This document shows, piece by piece, positions 2,643-10,460 of a stretch of DNA of 64,000 nt (the first letter of the stretch is position 1; each line of letters opens with the position of its first letter). The notes under the pieces were generated by a model. The model was not told where the DNA came from. It did not search any database and saw nothing but the letters and a program-made list of their open reading frames with translations. The position numbers were made by a program, and so were the translations under genes. The DNA comes from Thermoguttaceae bacterium (GTDB lineage: Bacteria; Planctomycetota; Planctomycetia; Pirellulales; Thermoguttaceae), in contig JANXBW010000020.1 in the NCBI GenBank assembly GCA_025060325.1, positions 1 through 64,000 on the forward strand, in the 5' to 3' direction.

Positions 2643-3656
2643 CTATGCGATGGGGGTGTTAGCCGTGCTCAAGTACTGCCGATAGGCGACGGGCCCGCCG
2701 GCCACCACAAGGGCCATCACCACCCCATTTTCCCTCCAAAGGCTGGCCGAGAACGTGGCTGTATTGAGCATCGGTGCTTCCGGGGGGATGGCGGGTGCGC
2801 CCGACACATCGGAGGCAAAAACGTACAGGGTTGCCCGCCCGCTTCCAATCCGTGGTAAATCGAAGGCAACGGCCTCTGTCCCTCCGACCATTCGCACCCA
2901 TCTCCACCGAGATTGGGCAACTCCCCCCACGAATTTGGAGGGGCGATATCCCCACGGTGGATCCTCAGCAGAAACCGGGGTACCCGAGGCGAAAATCGCC
3001 TCCTCCCCCTGAAACGTGGCAATAGCCAGCTGCAGGACCTGTTCGACCGATTGCGATTCTGAGTAGCCAGGCCTAAAAAGCCATAAAACTGGCCAAATTG
3101 CGCAAAATAGCAAGGCAGTAAGACCGATCGATACCGACACCCAAACGGCTACTCCACGCTCCAAGTGTTTGCCACGGAAGACCCCCCGGACACGATTTGC
3201 GAAACGGGAATAGCTATTTGAAAGGTCCAAATTCTGATCCGGACCGGCCTCACTTGACTGGCTCTGACCCCAGAAGCCCGGGAGCGCCGCACCTGGGGTG
3301 GGAGTTACCACAGCAGGCACAGCCTCCGCGCTGCCACCCCCAACCTCGGAAGAAGCAGCCTCCGCCTCGTGGCTAACAGAAGAGATGCCAAATCTTGCGG
3401 CTAAAGCCGACAGAACACCTTCCGCCAATCCGGGCGGCGTCGGCACAGCATGCATCAACCGGCGAATTCTTTCATCCGCCGCCAAGACCGCCTCGAACCG
3501 GGCTTTCGCCTCCGTGTCGCTCTTAAGAGCTTCAGCTAACGAACTGAGAGCAGGATCCGAAAGGCTATCCTTGGCGGGCTGAAATATTTCCATCAGGCGG
3601 TCCGCAGCGGCCGGGACCGGGCCACCACAGCGCTTATTTCTTTTTCTCCGATTCAC
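2643..3656 (-). CDS. Putative single-pass membrane anti-sigma factor
   Basis: A 337-residue protein read from a GTG start preceded by AAGGA at good spacing. That start lies inside the last codons of the ECF sigma gene (23-base overlap), which implies translational coupling. Residues 1-165 are a cytoplasmic, Ala/Glu-rich and partly low-complexity region. One strong membrane span lies at about 169-194, followed by an extracytoplasmic domain of about 140 residues rich in beta-type sequence. This topology and the overlap with a sigma gene are typical of anti-sigma factors. However, no HxxxCxxC zinc anti-sigma motif is present, and I do not recognise the outer domain. The function as anti-sigma is therefore inferred from position and topology; a sigma-regulated membrane protein of other role is the alternative. 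The translational unit ends at 2643, 350 bases before tmRNA, which is transcribed in the same direction. Confidence 0.7.
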   Translation of the reverse strand: MNRRKRNKRCGGPVPAAADRLMEIFQPAKDSLSDPALSSLAEALKSDTEAKARFEAVLAADERIRRLMHAVPTPPGLAEGVLSALAARFGISSVSHEAEAASSEVGGGSAEAVPAVVTPTPGAALPGFWGQSQSSEAGPDQNLDLSNSYSRFANRVRGVFRGKHLERGVAVWVSVSIGLTALLFCAIWPVLWLFRPGYSESQSVEQVLQLAIATFQGEEAIFASGTPVSAEDPPWGYRPSKFVGGVAQSRWRWVRMVGGTEAVAFDLPRIGSGRATLYVFASDVSGAPAIPPEAPMLNTATFSASLWRENGVVMALVVAGGPVAYRQYLSTANTPIA

Positions 3657-4212
3657 GGGCTAAGTCCTTCGTTTTCGAAGGTCTCCGCTTTTTTTCCCGT
3701 GCTCTAGCCACCACGTCTTGCGTTGGTTCGAGCAACTCCCGCAGTCGCCTTTTTGCCCGAAACAATCCGCTCATTACGGTCCCCATGGGCAGCCGAAGTT
3801 GCTCGGCGATCTCCTGGTAGGAAAGGTCGTCAAAGTAAAACATCGTCACCAGGATCCGCCACCGGGGCGGCAATTGGGCAAGGGCCCGTCGCAAGGCACC
3901 AACTTGTTCCGGTTCCTCCGGCTGACTGTCCGACTCCTGTCGATCCAGCACTTCCGGCGGGCAAGCCTCTTCTCCCCCTTGGTCACGAAGGTGATTCAGA
4001 AAAAGACGCCGACAGATCCGGGTGAGCCAAGGCCAGACTTTCTCCGGAGACCGGAGCTGAGAGCGCTTCTCGAACGCCCGGCAGAAAACCTCCTGAGTCA
4101 AATCTCTGGCCTGATGGTAATCTCCCGTCAGAAAGAGAGAATACCGAAATAGCTGGTCGGCGTACTGGCGGACCACTTCAGCGAAATCCCAGTCGCCGCT
4201 TGTCTGGCTCAT
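3634..4212 (-). CDS. RNA polymerase sigma factor, ECF (sigma-70 family)
   Basis: 192 residues from an ATG at 4212 with AGGGG upstream; a start 27 bases earlier is possible but lacks a better site. Region sigma-2 lies at about residues 10-75, with the signature GDYHQARDLTQEVFCRAF and a following WPWLTRICRRLFLNHLRD helix. Sigma-4 lies at about 112-165, with LPPRWR...DLSYQEIAEQLRLPMGTVMSGLFRAKRRLR, the -35-binding helix-turn-helix. Region sigma-3 is absent, as expected for ECF factors. The C-terminus carries an unusual highly basic tail (K/R/E-rich, about 25 residues) past sigma-4. It overlaps the start of the membrane protein at 2643-3656, its presumed regulator. Function: directs RNA polymerase to a stress or envelope-response regulon. 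The exact ECF group cannot be told by eye. Confidence 0.93.
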   Translation of the reverse strand: MSQTSGDWDFAEVVRQYADQLFRYSLFLTGDYHQARDLTQEVFCRAFEKRSQLRSPEKVWPWLTRICRRLFLNHLRDQGGEEACPPEVLDRQESDSQPEEPEQVGALRRALAQLPPRWRILVTMFYFDDLSYQEIAEQLRLPMGTVMSGLFRAKRRLRELLEPTQDVVARAREKKRRPSKTKDLARESEKKK

Positions 4213-4788
4213 AACAGGCCCCTGATTAATGACACCCAAAGCCGCCCCAATATTCCTGGGGTCGGATCCCCCCGGCCAAACGACGCTATTTTACTCCCCT
4301 CACACCCGTCTCCCCAGCCATACGGCAGAAAAAAGGGAGGAACTGCCTCATCTTTGCGAGGCTTCATGTCAGATTTGTCCACATGGACACCATCACCCAC
4401 CTAATAGAGAAAACTTCGTGCAGCTTGTGAGCGAATTGCCGACTTTGCGTACGACTCCGGCTTTAGCGGACATGCCGGCCAATTTTCCCCTTTTCGGTTC
4501 GATTCTGAGGCGTTGGGTTTTTGGGTCTGAGCTGGATAATACTTCACCCAGAATGCGCGGTCTTATGAAGAACGCGAAATCCACTTCGTCGATACACGAC
4601 GGTGCGCCTCAAAGCTGCTTATTTCATGCGCCACAACACCCTCGCACAGAATTCCCGCCAATTCCCTCGGTGATCCCCTGCCTAAGAACGATCCTTACGG
4701 GCCCGGACTGAATGTATGGCTCGTTCGGGTTTAGATCATATACACCCGGGAACTTAGGCGCCCGCAGAGGCAATGGTGCTTCAGCTGC
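4213..4788. other. Intergenic region upstream of the ECF sigma gene
   Basis: About 575 bases between the sigma factor and the end of hemC. No protein-like frame is visible. It should contain the promoter for the sigma/anti-sigma pair, possibly autoregulated, but I could not identify a repeated ECF promoter motif by eye. Confidence 0.4.
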
Positions 4789-5724
4789 CTAGTCGGAGGG
4801 CAATCCCATCGGCCTGGACCTGGCCAGTGCGATGCACTCCCCGGCGCCCATGCCGAGAAGCTGGGTGGCAAGCTTTTCGCCGAGTAAGTCCGCGTTTTGC
4901 GGACTGTCGGACTGGGTTGCGTCCAGTCGGCGACGACCATCCGGCGAGAGGACCCGGCCTGCCAAGACGAGTCGCTCGTTGCGGATCATTCCTAGGGCGG
5001 CCACAGGGGCAAGACATCCCCCCTTAAGATAGCGGAGAAAAGACCTTTCTGCCTCGACGGCGGCTCTGGTTGGATAGTGATCAAGCCTGCCCACCAGCCG
5101 GACTAAGTCCGGATCGTCGGTCCTTACCTCAACGGCTAGTGCTCCCTGACCCGGGGCCGGCAGCATAAACGCACCCGGCAGTCGGTGGCAGTCAGAAGTC
5201 AACCGATTAAGACGTTGCAAGCCGGCTTCGGCAAGAACGATCGCGTCAAACTGCCCCTCGCGAAGCTTCCGCAGTCGCGTGTCAACATTGCCGCGTAGCG
5301 GCTCTATTCGCAAGTGTGGATAAAGATACCACAGCTGTGCCCGCCGCCGCGGACTAGTTGTTCCCACAACGACCGGGCTTGCCAAGACGGAAAGCCCTTC
5401 CGCTCGCGGACAGACCAACACATCGAAGGGAGATTCGCGGGCAAGCACCGCTGCCAGCCTTAGTCCAGCAACCGGTTCGGTTGGCAGATCTTTCAGACTG
5501 TGAACGGCGATATCCACCCGGCCATCAAGAAGTGCATCCTGGAGTTCCTTGGTGAAAATCCCTCGCGATTCCCCAAGTGGCGGGGCACCTTCCTGCTGCC
5601 TGTCTCCAGTGGTCGTGATTAAGACCAGTTGGACAGCCGCTCCCAGATCCGCTAATAACTGGGCAACCTGGGCCGTTTGAGACCGAGCAAGTTGACTTCC
5701 CCGCGTGCCTATGCGGATGTGCAC
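4789..5724 (-). CDS. hemC: Hydroxymethylbilane synthase (porphobilinogen deaminase)
   Basis: 311 residues, GTG start with AAAGGAG about 8 bases upstream. It polymerises four porphobilinogen units to hydroxymethylbilane in tetrapyrrole (haem, sirohaem) biosynthesis, in the cytoplasm. The N-terminus IRIGTRGSQLARSQT is diagnostic. It is followed by TTTGDRQ, the AVHSLKDLPTE segment, TSPRRRAQL and the lyase core PAPGQGALAVEVR. Cys237 in LKGGCLAPVAALG is the residue that covalently holds the dipyrromethane cofactor. The C-terminal domain ends GMGAGECIALAR. Length is normal for the family. No other haem gene is adjacent: the HEAT-like gene lies upstream and the sigma gene downstream, all on the same strand but well separated, so it is probably monocistronic. 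Confidence 0.97.
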   Translation of the reverse strand: MHIRIGTRGSQLARSQTAQVAQLLADLGAAVQLVLITTTGDRQQEGAPPLGESRGIFTKELQDALLDGRVDIAVHSLKDLPTEPVAGLRLAAVLARESPFDVLVCPRAEGLSVLASPVVVGTTSPRRRAQLWYLYPHLRIEPLRGNVDTRLRKLREGQFDAIVLAEAGLQRLNRLTSDCHRLPGAFMLPAPGQGALAVEVRTDDPDLVRLVGRLDHYPTRAAVEAERSFLRYLKGGCLAPVAALGMIRNERLVLAGRVLSPDGRRRLDATQSDSPQNADLLGEKLATQLLGMGAGECIALARSRPMGLPSD

Positions 5725-5960
5725 AGGATTTCTCCTTTAACTCTCCTGTGGGTGCACAGCCCGGCCGAGTGATCTGGTGGCAGGTCAAGATAGCCGATAA
5801 GTGACCAATCGAAAAGGCATGCGCGCGTCTAAGACAATCTTGACGGCGGGACAACGCGGGGGGCCAGTTCGGCTAAGAGAGCCGCTGGAGTGCCATCGCC
5901 CAGCAAAACCACCGTACTGGGAGAGGTCGATTGGGGAATAAGGGACTTCAATTAGAAACC

Positions 5961-5978
5961 GGCCCTTTAGGACGGGCC
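5961..5978 (-). terminator. Possible terminator of the HEAT/receiver-like gene
   Basis: On the minus strand GGCCC and GGGCC (5961-5978) form a 5-bp stem with an 8-nt loop, followed by GGTTTCTAATT, about 30 bases after the stop codon at 6008. The stem is short and the T-run is interrupted, so this is tentative. Confidence 0.35.
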
Positions 5979-6007
5979 TCAACCTGGCTGTGGCTTAGCC
6001 GGGAAGC

Positions 6008-8383
6008 CTATGGGGGGAATGCACCAACCTGGATGGTCGCCGGTTGTCGGCCCTCAATGGCATCCAGAATGGCCCCGAGGATTTCTCGCTCTATAGGGCT
6101 GGTCGGTCCAATTTGGTTGTACAAGTCGTACTGCCGCTCAATTTGTTTCGTGGTCAACAAAATTCCAAAGCGAGAGACAGTTTCTCCAAACACTTGAACT
6201 GCCTCCCGTCGTAATGCTTCCGGCACCGACTGGCGACTGGCAAACTGGACAAGACTCGTCTGAGCTGTCGGAGAGCCAATCGCACCTAAGAGTTTCATCG
6301 CCGCCGGCGCCCGATCCGGAAAGTTAAGCTGAACGGCCAGAACCGGCTCCATTCGGCTTAGCGAAAGTATTTGGGCCGTGCGGTCAATATCCCTAGCTAA
6401 GACCTGCAGGATGGCTTGGGCTACCCAGCTGCGCTCATTGCGGGCCAAAAGTGCTCCGTGATCTAGCCGGCGCAACTCGTCCACTTGCCACTTAATTGAC
6501 TCTAGCGAATGTGGTCGAGAAAAGGCCTTCCCCATGGGGTTTCGTGCCGCCACCTGTTGGGCGCGGTCCAGTGTGCCGGCCCGCGCCCAAATCCCCACCG
6601 GCACGGGTGCAGACCGGCAATCAGCTGCCAGCTGCTGAACTAATGTATCCACAGGCGGATCGTCAAGGCCCAAGTCAAGGAAAGCAACTTCGAAATCCGG
6701 CGAATTTGTCAACAAACGGAAGGCGTCCCGCCCGGTGCGAACTGTGTCCACCTCGAAGCCAAGCTGAACCAAAAACCCTGCCACCGTCATTGCCTCTGCC
6801 GTATTGGCCGAGGCTATCAAAGCTCGGCTTCTGCCTTCCGAGGCCAGGAAAAACCGCACAGTTTCCCCCAACCAACTGGCCCCAGCAAAGTGACAGTTTT
6901 CAGCATGTTGCAGGATCGCAGTTAAAGCGAAGAACCGTACACGCCGATCAGCTCGCCGAAGCGCTTCCACAACCGGGGAGGGATCCACATGACTTGAGGT
7001 CAACAACCGCTCGTCAGATCGGCCCGCGACTATCGCCAATACGACGGCACTAGCAATGGGCAACCGGTGCTCCTGGCCTAGACAAAAGACCTGGATAAGT
7101 TCGGCACAGGAGATCTGATCCCATGCCTTGGCTAACTTGTTTGCTGCTTCTGCAATCTCCCGCAGACTTCCCTGCCCGCCGGCAAGCTCTGCCGCGCACA
7201 GCAGGTTGTAGTGCGAAGCTAATGCAAGCTGAGGAGCCATCTGAGCTGCCGCCCGGGCCAAGAATGCCGCTTCCCTCCTCCGCACCTCGCCCACTGGGAG
7301 TTGCTTTACCTCGGGGACGCCTTGCTGGTGATCCCAAAACCACCATGCACAAGTGGCACCGCGCTCCGCGGCAAGAGCTTCATTCAATAGCTGACGTACC
7401 TGTCGGACCAAAAGCCCAGCGGCTGCCTCGGGCTGGGGCACATCGCCGTAGAGGCTAGCGAAGACTTGCCAGGCTTGGCGACCAGCGGCACTATCTGCTC
7501 GAACCGTCGCCGCAACCAGGAGATAAGGCCCGAGCCCCTCCAATCGGAGCATGCCCGCCAAGCTGGCCGCCTCCGCCGCCATCGGTTCTGGCCCTTCCTG
7601 AAGTATCGCCCGAAGCGGCCCAACAGCCTCCTCTCCCAATTGTTTAAGCACGTTTAAGGCGCGACGCTGAAAATGGCCCGACGTGACATCCGGCGAACTT
7701 TTGCCCGCCACCAGCCCCTCAACCAAGGGTGCGACAGCAAAGCCCCCGGAGCGCCGCAGGTCTTCGGCGGCTTTCATGGCAACGCGGACATCTTCATCAC
7801 TCAGCTGGGCGACCAGTTTCCGAAGCCGGTCGATATCCCGGCGGTGGGCATCAAGAGCCGCCCCTAACGCCTGGGCCAAATCCCGAGCTTCCGGCGCAAG
7901 CTCCGGCCGCATGGCCATTTGGTAAAACATCTCCGCACCGAAGCGCTCCTCCAAATCCACAAGTGTCGCCCGCCGCGTAGCGTCATCTTGGTTGGCAAGT
8001 TCGACGAGAATCTTCTTGATAAAGCCCTTCGCCAAATCGACCTCGCCCAGATCGGCCAAAATCTTGGCAGCCCGAGCGCACTCCCACGGAAAGGTCGGGT
8101 TGGTGGCGAGAATGGCTTGGGCCGCCGGACTAGCCGTCGATGGAGCGGAGGTCCCTTCCGGTGGATTAGCAGCCAGGGGGGCAGCCTGTTCCGCGGGAGC
8201 CTGGAACGCTCCCCCACCGCCGGGTTGACCCTGGGCGGCCGCCAAGGGCAAGGCTAAAAGGCAGGCTATGCCGCAACAGCAAAGCCCCCGTAATACGAAT
8301 GAGGCCACTGCCCCCAAACGTCCGAACCGTTGGCGTTTCAGGGAACACTTCGCGATTTTCAAGGATTTACGCCTCCGGAGCAA
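6008..8383 (-). CDS. Exported HEAT-repeat-like protein with embedded receiver-like domain
   Basis: 791 residues. A long basic N-terminus and a hydrophobic stretch (about residues 27-50, ending LALPLAAAQG) look like a signal peptide. Residues 50-110 are a Pro/Ala-rich linker. About 110-510 is alpha-helical with repeated two-helix units such as LNVLKQLGEEAVGPLRAIL and VVEALRRADRRVRFFALTAIL, resembling HEAT/ARM repeats. About 515-640 resembles a response-regulator receiver: ALIASANTAEAMTVAGFL, then DFEVAFLDLGLDD with an Asp near 566 at the phosphoacceptor position, and a late Lys in PMGKAFSRP. The acidic pair normally found after the first strand is missing (SANTAEA instead). A short helical C-terminus follows (SPTAQTSLVQFAS...REAVQVF). 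No kinase or DNA-binding domain is present. Function unknown; a scaffold with a degenerate, non-phosphorylated receiver is my best reading. Confidence 0.8.
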   Translation of the reverse strand: MLRRRKSLKIAKCSLKRQRFGRLGAVASFVLRGLCCCGIACLLALPLAAAQGQPGGGGAFQAPAEQAAPLAANPPEGTSAPSTASPAAQAILATNPTFPWECARAAKILADLGEVDLAKGFIKKILVELANQDDATRRATLVDLEERFGAEMFYQMAMRPELAPEARDLAQALGAALDAHRRDIDRLRKLVAQLSDEDVRVAMKAAEDLRRSGGFAVAPLVEGLVAGKSSPDVTSGHFQRRALNVLKQLGEEAVGPLRAILQEGPEPMAAEAASLAGMLRLEGLGPYLLVAATVRADSAAGRQAWQVFASLYGDVPQPEAAAGLLVRQVRQLLNEALAAERGATCAWWFWDHQQGVPEVKQLPVGEVRRREAAFLARAAAQMAPQLALASHYNLLCAAELAGGQGSLREIAEAANKLAKAWDQISCAELIQVFCLGQEHRLPIASAVVLAIVAGRSDERLLTSSHVDPSPVVEALRRADRRVRFFALTAILQHAENCHFAGASWLGETVRFFLASEGRSRALIASANTAEAMTVAGFLVQLGFEVDTVRTGRDAFRLLTNSPDFEVAFLDLGLDDPPVDTLVQQLAADCRSAPVPVGIWARAGTLDRAQQVAARNPMGKAFSRPHSLESIKWQVDELRRLDHGALLARNERSWVAQAILQVLARDIDRTAQILSLSRMEPVLAVQLNFPDRAPAAMKLLGAIGSPTAQTSLVQFASRQSVPEALRREAVQVFGETVSRFGILLTTKQIERQYDLYNQIGPTSPIEREILGAILDAIEGRQPATIQVGAFPP

Positions 8384-9080
8384 TTAGAAAACAGCCTTTG
8401 TCAACTTTATGATGTTTGCCATTCGCTCGTCTAAAACCGCAAACACACAAGCGTGTGAAGCGCGGCTGTGCTGATCTTGCTCGCATGTTGCAGCCTGTTT
8501 ACGGGTCAGTACGGTTTCGCAGCGCGCCACGCGGAAATCCACCCCCCATGACAATCCGCAACCGAACTGGAGGCGGAATCGCCGAAGGACCCTTACCACC
8601 CTCAAAACCGGAATAACCTCTACCCTTGCCGCTAAATGGGCACCACCCGCAAGTCAACGGCCTGAAGAGTTGCACGCGGATGTCTTTAGGAGAACTTCCC
8701 GGCCGTACCCCTCCCCGGCCTTAACACTAGCTAGTCGCCGTAAGTCAAATCAGCAAACTTTTCCCTCGGGAAACTTTTCCGTTCCTTAACCCGAGGCCCC
8801 CATACTTTCCACTTTAATTGCCGAGTGGGCAAATTGTTACTTTCCGCCACCCCTCAGGGAGATTGGTACCCCGCTGCCCGAGTGGCCCGAGACTTGGCCC
8901 CCGAGAGATCTATTAGCCTCATCGACGGGCGGATAGGGCACTAACGGGGATCTTTACGCCCTCATTCCGCTTGTGAGCCCCGAGGAACAATGGTCGCCAC
9001 GACCGATCCGTTTCCCCCACTTGCCCCAAAACCCGGCAGTCGCCCTCTTCGTGCCTAGCACGGCCCTTTGAGACCGCCAA
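8384..9080. other. Intergenic region between argH and the HEAT-like gene
   Basis: About 700 bases with no credible gene. It contains a direct repeat of AAACTTTTCC (around 8757-8780) and an inverted pair CCTCGGG/CCCGAGG separated by about 19 bases, downstream of argH on its coding strand. A poor terminator is possible. The upstream control region of the HEAT-like gene must also lie here. Confidence 0.4.
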
Positions 9081-10460
9081 TCACTTAATGCCGAGCCGCT
9101 CCTTCCAGCGTCGGACCTGTAAGGCAACCTGTTCGGGGTGGGTCGACCCAGCGCTCTGCATGGCCTGGACGGCGTTTCTTGCCCCCAAACAGGAAAACAC
9201 CTCCGGGCCCACGTCGCCAATCTCTTGGCGAAATTCCTCCAAGCTGATTTCCGCAAGGCGGCGTCCCGACTCGATGGCCCGGCGGACTAACCGGCCTACC
9301 ACGTGATGGGCATCGCGCTGGGGGATGCCCCGGCGGATCAAAAACTCCATTAAAGTTGTTGCATCTAGAAAACCTACCTCCACCGCTTGCTGGAGGATAT
9401 TTCGGTCCAGCCGGGCGGCGGAGACCACCTCCGCGGCGATTTCCAAACACGCCGAAACAGTGTCAAAGGCGTCAAAAAGCGGGACTTTGTCTTCCTGAAG
9501 ATCCCGGTTGTACCCGAGGGGTAACCCTTTCAAAAGAACCAGTATCGTCTGCAAATCCCCAATGACCCGCGCGCATTTGCCCCGGACTAACTCTAGCACA
9601 TCTGGATTCCGCTTCTGCGGCATGATTGAAGAGCCAGTGCAGTAAGCATCCGGAAGCGAAAGGAAACCAAACTCAGTCGACGACCAAAGGATCCAGTCCT
9701 CGGCCCACCCACTTAAATGGATGGCCGTTAGTGCCAAGCAAAACAAAAATTCGGCGATAAAGTCCCGATCGCAAGAGGCGTCAATCGAGTTCTCCAGGAT
9801 CCCGGCAAAACCGAGTGCCCGCGCCGTTTGATCTCTGTCTATCGGGAGAGACGTCCCAGCGATAGCAGCCGCCCCGAGAGGCGAAAGATTCACCCGACGC
9901 CGACAGTCGGCCAGCCGCTCTCGGTCTCGGCCAAATCGTTCGCAGTAGGCCAGCCACATATGGGCCGCTAGCACAGGCTGTGCCCGCCGCAGGTGGGTGT
10001 AGGCTGGGACGATCACTCCTTCATCTTGATCACATCGGGCAACAAAGGCCCGCTGGAGGGCCTCGATCTTCTTGTCGATCTGGTCAATTGCTTCCCTAAC
10101 CCATAAGCGTAGGTCTGTGGCAACCTGATCGTTCCGGCTCCGAGCCGTGTGAAGCTTTTTCCCAAGCTCGCCCAGCCGATCGACCAGAGCCTGTTCCACG
10201 TGCATGTGGATGTCTTCCAGCTCCTGGCGGAAGGGAAGTTCGCCCCGGTCGATCATCAATCCAATGTCTTCCAGGGCCTTTGTGAGCTTTTCTACTTCCT
10301 CCGCAGAAAGTAAACCGACCGCCCCTAACATCTGTGCGTGGGCGATCGAGGCAGCGATATCCTGCCGGTAAAGGCGCCAGTCAAAACTGATGCTTTCCGT
10401 GAACTGCTCCACACTGGGAGCCGTCTTTTCCCGAAACACTCCTCCCCAACGCTTTTCCAA
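9081..10460 (-). CDS. argH: Argininosuccinate lyase
   Basis: 459 residues, TTG start with AAAGGA at good spacing. It cleaves argininosuccinate to arginine and fumarate, the last step of arginine biosynthesis, as a cytoplasmic homotetramer. The start MEKRWGGVFREKTAPSVEQF is typical of the family. The conserved segments of the fumarase/aspartase superfamily are present: HMHVEQAL, HTARSRNDQVATDLRLW, YTHLRRAQPV, and the flexible catalytic loop GSSIMPQKRNPDVLELVRGK (about residues 275-295), which carries the catalytic Ser. The C-terminal ARNAVQAMQSAGSTHPEQV closes the protein at normal length. No argG or other arg gene is adjacent in this window. Confidence 0.97.
   Translation of the reverse strand: MEKRWGGVFREKTAPSVEQFTESISFDWRLYRQDIAASIAHAQMLGAVGLLSAEEVEKLTKALEDIGLMIDRGELPFRQELEDIHMHVEQALVDRLGELGKKLHTARSRNDQVATDLRLWVREAIDQIDKKIEALQRAFVARCDQDEGVIVPAYTHLRRAQPVLAAHMWLAYCERFGRDRERLADCRRRVNLSPLGAAAIAGTSLPIDRDQTARALGFAGILENSIDASCDRDFIAEFLFCLALTAIHLSGWAEDWILWSSTEFGFLSLPDAYCTGSSIMPQKRNPDVLELVRGKCARVIGDLQTILVLLKGLPLGYNRDLQEDKVPLFDAFDTVSACLEIAAEVVSAARLDRNILQQAVEVGFLDATTLMEFLIRRGIPQRDAHHVVGRLVRRAIESGRRLAEISLEEFRQEIGDVGPEVFSCLGARNAVQAMQSAGSTHPEQVALQVRRWKERLGIK

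Follow-up and report, generated by a model that had tools for sequence, protein, structure and literature searches.

Few signalling domains are as common in bacteria as the receiver, which is regarded as a cytoplasmic one. A functional receiver has five active-site residues, namely an acidic pair, the phospho-acceptor Asp, Thr/Ser, and Lys. Receivers from which one or more of these are missing are termed pseudo-receivers (PsR) in PMC12632262, in which their mechanisms are described as largely unknown. PsR and aspartate-less receivers (ALR) have the same receiver fold without one or more of the active-site residues, and they are located in cytoplasmic response regulators. In FrzS of Myxococcus xanthus (PDB 2gkg, 2nt3) the pseudo-receiver docks its partner via the α3-β4-α4 face (PMC12632262). 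The other group of proteins to be compared here is that built of HEAT repeats, in which the solenoid is alike; among the Foldseek matches listed for the protein described below are importins, CAND1, and β-catenin, and no listed HEAT-repeat match mentions in its title a receiver within the solenoid. Among the open PubMed Central papers listed in literature searches, none has a title or displayed abstract on a periplasmic or exported receiver. The words "periplasm" and "signal peptide" are absent from the main text of PMC12632262 and PMC4395418, and the passages with "heat" displayed from these two concern heat maps or heat shock.

The stretch of DNA analysed here, 64,000 nucleotides long and further called the window, carries a gene whose product combines, by computation, the receiver fold and receiver homology, a broken active site, HEAT-type surroundings, and a signal peptide found family-wide. 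The protein is probably an exported scaffold in which a non-phosphorylatable pseudo-receiver acts as a docking module, both the localisation and the function being predicted.

Gene and Protein Organization

The gene is an open reading frame of 791 codons on the minus strand, read from a TTG start (8383 to 6008; Table 1), in a genome of 4.78 Mb assembled in 89 contigs. The full-length AlphaFold model, based on 51 aligned sequences (mean pLDDT 90.0, pTM 0.83), shows HEAT-type helices flanking the receiver domain on either side, and their tandem helix-hairpin repeats form a solenoid, as expected of HEAT repeats and as the original prediction had it in calling the rest of the protein helical-repeat. 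In Pfam, the window protein alone gives only sub-threshold HEAT hits (HEAT_2), and HEAT_2 (PF13646) is found at E ≤ 0.1 in 29 of 30 family members. Comparison of the full-length model with viral structures returned generic response regulators and repeat proteins.

Table 1. Coordinates of the gene, the parts of its product, and the adjacent genes in the window
Feature	Position	Strand	Basis
argH (argininosuccinate lyase), constant upstream neighbour in the order	9081..10460	-	PF00206, PF14698
Whole gene, coding for a HEAT protein of 791 aa, exported by prediction and interrupted by a pseudo-receiver	6008..8383	-	ORF, homologues
Sec signal peptide (predicted), residues 1-50, LPLAAA↓QGQ	8234..8383	-	sequence rule, hydrophobicity
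Ala/Pro/Gly-rich linker, residues 51-82, low confidence	8138..8233	-	AlphaFold pLDDT < 50 for most of 47-79
N-terminal α-solenoid (HEAT-type), residues 86-513	6845..8128	-	AlphaFold helices, HEAT_2
β-hairpin within the solenoid, residues 344-363, conserved W-x-W-D (W348, W350, D351)	7295..7354	-	alignment, AlphaFold
Pseudo-receiver domain, residues 519-640, (βα)5	6464..6829	-	AlphaFold, structural and profile matches
Codon of D570, phospho-acceptor position	6674..6676	-	alignment, codon read
D588-x-R590, α3-β4 loop, among the domain's most conserved positions in the family	6614..6622	-	conservation
Codon of R623, catalytic-Lys position of receivers	6515..6517	-	alignment, codon read
C-terminal α-solenoid, residues 648-777, conserved RQYDxYN motif (~750-756)	6053..6442	-	alignment, AlphaFold
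hemC (porphobilinogen deaminase), lying downstream in the clade of the window	4789..5724	-	domain search, locus comparison

Fold and Descent of the Receiver Domain

The receiver domain is modelled in the full-length protein with block-mean pLDDT values mostly of 95-98, and its elements follow the strand-helix order of CheY: β1 520-524, α1 528-540, β2 544-548, α2 551-560, β3 564-570, α3 578-587, β4 596-600, α4 605-612, β5 618-622, and α5 627-638. Foldseek matches of the full model include CheY (4hnr, target TM 0.85, 2.2 Å) and PhoB (2iyn, 0.84). Modelled alone, the domain has a pLDDT of 86.9, and all 50 structural matches listed for this model are receiver-containing proteins (Z 17.1-18.5, the best at 2.1 Å over 124 residues).

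Matches by sequence profile point the same way. An order-level family profile (51 sequences) run against PDB sequences finds receivers at this place (5t3y at 1.7e-7, FrzS at 3.6e-5), with the best receiver matches at about 1e-10 once distant members are added, while a profile of the domain recovers canonical receivers in the window genome (5.8e-7). Response_reg of Pfam is reached at E ≤ 0.1 by 5 of 30 family members (best 5.4e-6). The window protein alone misses the Pfam threshold for Response_reg (PF00072), its receiver being visible only by profile or fold; in NCBIfam its residues 520-586 align to part of a TorS hybrid kinase/response regulator model at 2.1e-4, far below the cut-off. Distant members of the family bear recognisable receiver motifs.

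Since the high pLDDT and the CheY order of elements are joined by profile matches to response regulators in PDB, the resemblance is not a matter of chance, and residues ~519-640 are, as judged from the model and the profiles, a true CheY-like receiver by fold and descent. The original prediction had placed a receiver-like domain at about 515-640 and named a fold other than CheY-like as the result that would speak against it; structure prediction and structural search gave the CheY-like one. The domain thus has the parallel-sheet (βα)5 architecture and the detectable sequence homology that define the PF00072 clan, and it superimposes on CheY, PhoB, NtrX, and PrrA at about 2 Å with Z of 17-18.5. 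It differs from these receivers in having neither the acidic pair nor Thr/Ser nor Lys, in its predicted export, and in lying below Pfam detection.

Active Site

Active-site positions were assigned by alignment to the canonical receivers of the window genome. In the window protein S525/A526 occupy the place of the acidic pair, D570 that of the phospho-acceptor, A600 that of Thr/Ser, and R623 that of Lys, D570 being the sole survivor. The acidic pair is therefore missing, as had been predicted, and an Asp is indeed present, but at 570 instead of near 566, D563 being a second conserved Asp outside the phospho-acceptor position. The late Lys of the original prediction must be K619; it lies four residues ahead of the R623 position, and the protein therefore lacks the catalytic Lys as well as Thr/Ser. 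The window protein thus has no functional receiver site and is a PsR, recognised via profile and fold and not via the Pfam model; it is not an ALR, as D570 is present.

Counts for the family refer to 161 proteins, duplicate and truncated loci having been dropped before domain presence, active sites, and signal peptides were counted; in 156 of them a receiver is matched at 10 bits or more (91 at the order or class level and 65 at the phylum level). None of the 156 receivers has a complete five-residue active site. The phospho-acceptor Asp is present in 56 and absent from 100, and Lys is found in 12, versus 30 of the 30 canonical rows (6 of which are possibly repeats). As far as aligned residues tell, all 156 are pseudo-receivers by the definition in PMC12632262. 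The loss is graded, since Asp and Lys still occur together in seven members at the phylum level, and the site has not been fully abandoned, given that D570 is invariant in the ten members of A2 and that more than a third of the family receivers (the 56 mentioned above) still have the Asp.

Export and Localization

The window protein begins with a predicted Sec signal peptide having a basic n-region, a hydrophobic core, and then A-x-A↓Q, the position of the start codon being uncertain. The rule used to recognise such peptides is a home-made test of n-, h-, and c-regions over the first 200 codons, which may pick internal starts, as in L004. Of the 155 family proteins whose 5' end is complete, 141 satisfy it, versus 1 of 120 cytosolic proteins encoded in the same loci (0/58 activators, 1/42 ArgH, 0/20 HemA). 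Among the receivers of the window genome 2 of 27 places trigger it, and inspection showed both to be internal or spurious. The sole strong hydrophobic segment of the window protein is N-terminal (the mean over 19 residues peaks at 2.16, at residue 29), the maximum elsewhere being 1.39. Among 111 family proteins, an N-terminal 19-mer above 1.6 occurs in 91 and an internal one in 19, so that a few members could have further membrane contact.

By the positive-inside rule a basic n-region leaves the body of a protein outside, whether the hydrophobic segment is cleaved or not. With its basic n-region followed by A-x-A↓Q, the body of the window protein is thus expected outside even if uncleaved. These figures uphold the earlier view of the protein as exported by prediction; together with the lack of any complete active site they favour a pseudo-receiver in the periplasm, likewise a prediction, and tell against the alternative offered at the time, an N-terminal anchor with the domain inside. 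In this respect the family stands apart from PsR and ALR domains, its domain lying in a predicted exported helical-repeat protein and theirs in cytoplasmic response regulators.

Distribution of the Family

A homologue is found in 55 of 60 related genomes by protein search. A profile of 25 homologues has a match at E ≤ 0.001, a loose cut-off, in 241 of 246 Planctomycetota genomes, which is an upper bound, since HEAT or receiver alone can reach this value. Scanning of genome contigs by pattern and tblastn gave 63 loci with planctomycete names, partly overlapping the places found by protein search. One homologue, L097, belongs to the culturable Blastopirellula marina. The nearest named relatives come from an uncultured Thermoguttaceae bacterium (54% identity) and an uncultured Thermogutta sp. 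(45%). In four loci (L054, L055, L057, L059) the domain is cleanly absent and the flanking solenoid aligns. A receiver match is lacking in 5 of the 161 family proteins; in one of these, L126, the receiver lies in a separate frame.

Conserved Loop and Proposed Role

Among the 156 members, the lowest-entropy positions of the domain include G542, P595, R590, and D588, and L585, T591, and position 586 are also highly conserved, the latter being R in 107 members and A in the window protein. The family pattern of the α3-β4 loop is R/K586-x-D588-x-R590-T591, with D588 in 128 and R590 in 131 of the 156; these two positions are mostly gapped or differently occupied in the canonical receivers of the window genome. 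The usual output face, α4-β5-α5, is the most variable one in the family.

FrzS, one of the best profile matches, provides a parallel, its docking face being near the place where the window family is most conserved; what the family contributes to this comparison is the conservation of the loop. FrzS is cytoplasmic and is not known to have a HEAT solenoid or a signal peptide, both of which are predicted for the window family.

A receiver would have been inserted in a Sec-exported α-solenoid scaffold of the planctomycete periplasm and then stripped of its phosphotransfer chemistry, the resulting pseudo-receiver being a fixed docking module. We infer the docking role from the fact that neither kinase nor ATP is expected outside the cytoplasm. 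The α3-β4 loop may bind either another protein or the protein's own solenoid, similarly to the α3-β4-α4 face of FrzS, and docking would occur by this loop and not by the variable α4-β5-α5 face. Exported degenerate receivers conserved phylum-wide would be proof that a binding module can be made of this fold beyond the cytoplasm as well. Pseudo-receiver research would gain a naturally occurring example that no kinase is expected to reach, with domain-less relatives at hand for comparison, and a conserved, uncharacterised protein, predicted to belong to the envelope, is named in bacteria with unusual cell architecture.

Gene Neighbourhood and Alternative Explanations

In Pirellulales the gene is preceded on its own strand by argH in all 54 order-level loci that extend far enough upstream. 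Of the 56 loci extending far enough downstream, 42 have a receiver-less σ54 activator of the AAA+/Fis type after the gene, likewise on its strand. The activator is often followed by what we take, from their sequences, to be ccsA and then hemA. In the window and in its two nearest relatives, L061 and L062, hemC comes next instead and there is no adjoining activator. The window genome contains rpoN and no ortholog of the activator, its six strong σ54 activators scoring 291-390 versus about 540-670 for full-length orthologs.

At the phylum level, 70 loci were compared, mainly better-scoring listed rows and not a random sample, with many of them not independent. A regulator of the NtrC type is found within 3 kb in 10 of these, 9 of them divergent upstream, versus 1.28 expected from genome densities; the ten are spread over just six families and so do not count as independent (f28 three times, f64 and f50 twice each, f47, f82, and f102 once each). 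Neighbour maps based on greedy ORFs were left out of the NtrC counts owing to wrong frames in GC-rich loci. Those distant NtrC neighbours whose whole sequence was inspected each have a canonical receiver of their own. The link of the HEAT/receiver gene to σ54 regulation is suggestive.

Several other explanations of the domain have to be considered. It is scarcely credible that it has some other Rossmann-like α/β fold merely resembling a receiver: such a fold would account for the failure of the window protein alone to reach Response_reg in Pfam, but not for the exclusively receiver-containing structural matches listed, the response regulators found by profile at this very place, the receiver motifs of distant members, the five family members in which Response_reg is detected, or the partial TorS match, and it was rejected on the receiver matches by profile (PDB) and by structure. 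The domain could also be structural filler, packed against the solenoid and with no binding function, in line with the loss of catalytic residues, with the four loci that keep the rest of the protein without it, and with the five proteins lacking a receiver match. We consider filler improbable, as 156 of 161 proteins retain the domain and the D588/R590 loop exceeds the rest of it in conservation, a pattern for which an internal contact could also be responsible.

A further explanation dispenses with export: the N-terminal segment would be an anchor or a failed signal, and the receiver would be cytoplasmic, working in trans for the receiver-less σ54 activator or for NtrC. The downstream activator in most Pirellulales loci, the excess of NtrC-type regulators near distant members, and the partial survival of the active site in some members all agree with it, yet we consider it improbable too. 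The signal-peptide rule fires in 141 of the 155 family proteins, and the basic n-region predicts the domain to be outside even if the segment is uncleaved; moreover, the window, L061, and L062 keep the protein without an adjoining activator, the window genome has no ortholog of it, and the distant NtrC neighbours inspected over their whole sequence come with canonical receivers. A split response regulator formed with the neighbouring activator has been demoted because the activator is missing from the window's clade. An exported scaffold with a pseudo-receiver for docking thus remains the preferred explanation. A broader scenario, which we regard as rather unlikely, is that the receiver left the cytoplasm early in Planctomycetota and became a part of a widely conserved periplasmic scaffold; the receiver may still change conformation on binding a ligand or protein, with no phosphorylation involved, and report the state of the envelope to the adjoining σ54 activator. 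If true, it would mean a two-component part working on the far side of the membrane.

Several minor observations concern the loci themselves. The gene order in L063-L123 is argH, the HEAT/receiver gene, σ54 activator, ccsA, and hemA, often with carB divergent upstream; the activator (L063:7888-8958, L097:8128-9204, and other order-level loci) has the AAA+ and Fis parts without any sensory domain. The region 4789-10460 of the window suggests that its clade has lost the activator, ccsA, and hemA from the locus, hemC being found there. NtrC-type regulators are divergent upstream in the distant relatives L146, L151, L152, L156, L159, L163, L184, L190, and L199. A frame resembling the HEAT/receiver family, possibly a tandem HEAT paralogue, lies upstream of the gene in L138, L146, L156, L178, L184, and L190, some of these being perhaps wrong frames in GC-rich DNA, and in some phylum-level genomes (L133, L182, L194, L202; groups C8, C9, C18, C5) the gene is surrounded by another conserved cluster. 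Finally, the minus strand of the window at 2643-4239 codes for an ECF-type sigma factor followed by a 337-aa protein with a hydrophobic stretch and no Pfam hit, perhaps an anti-sigma factor.
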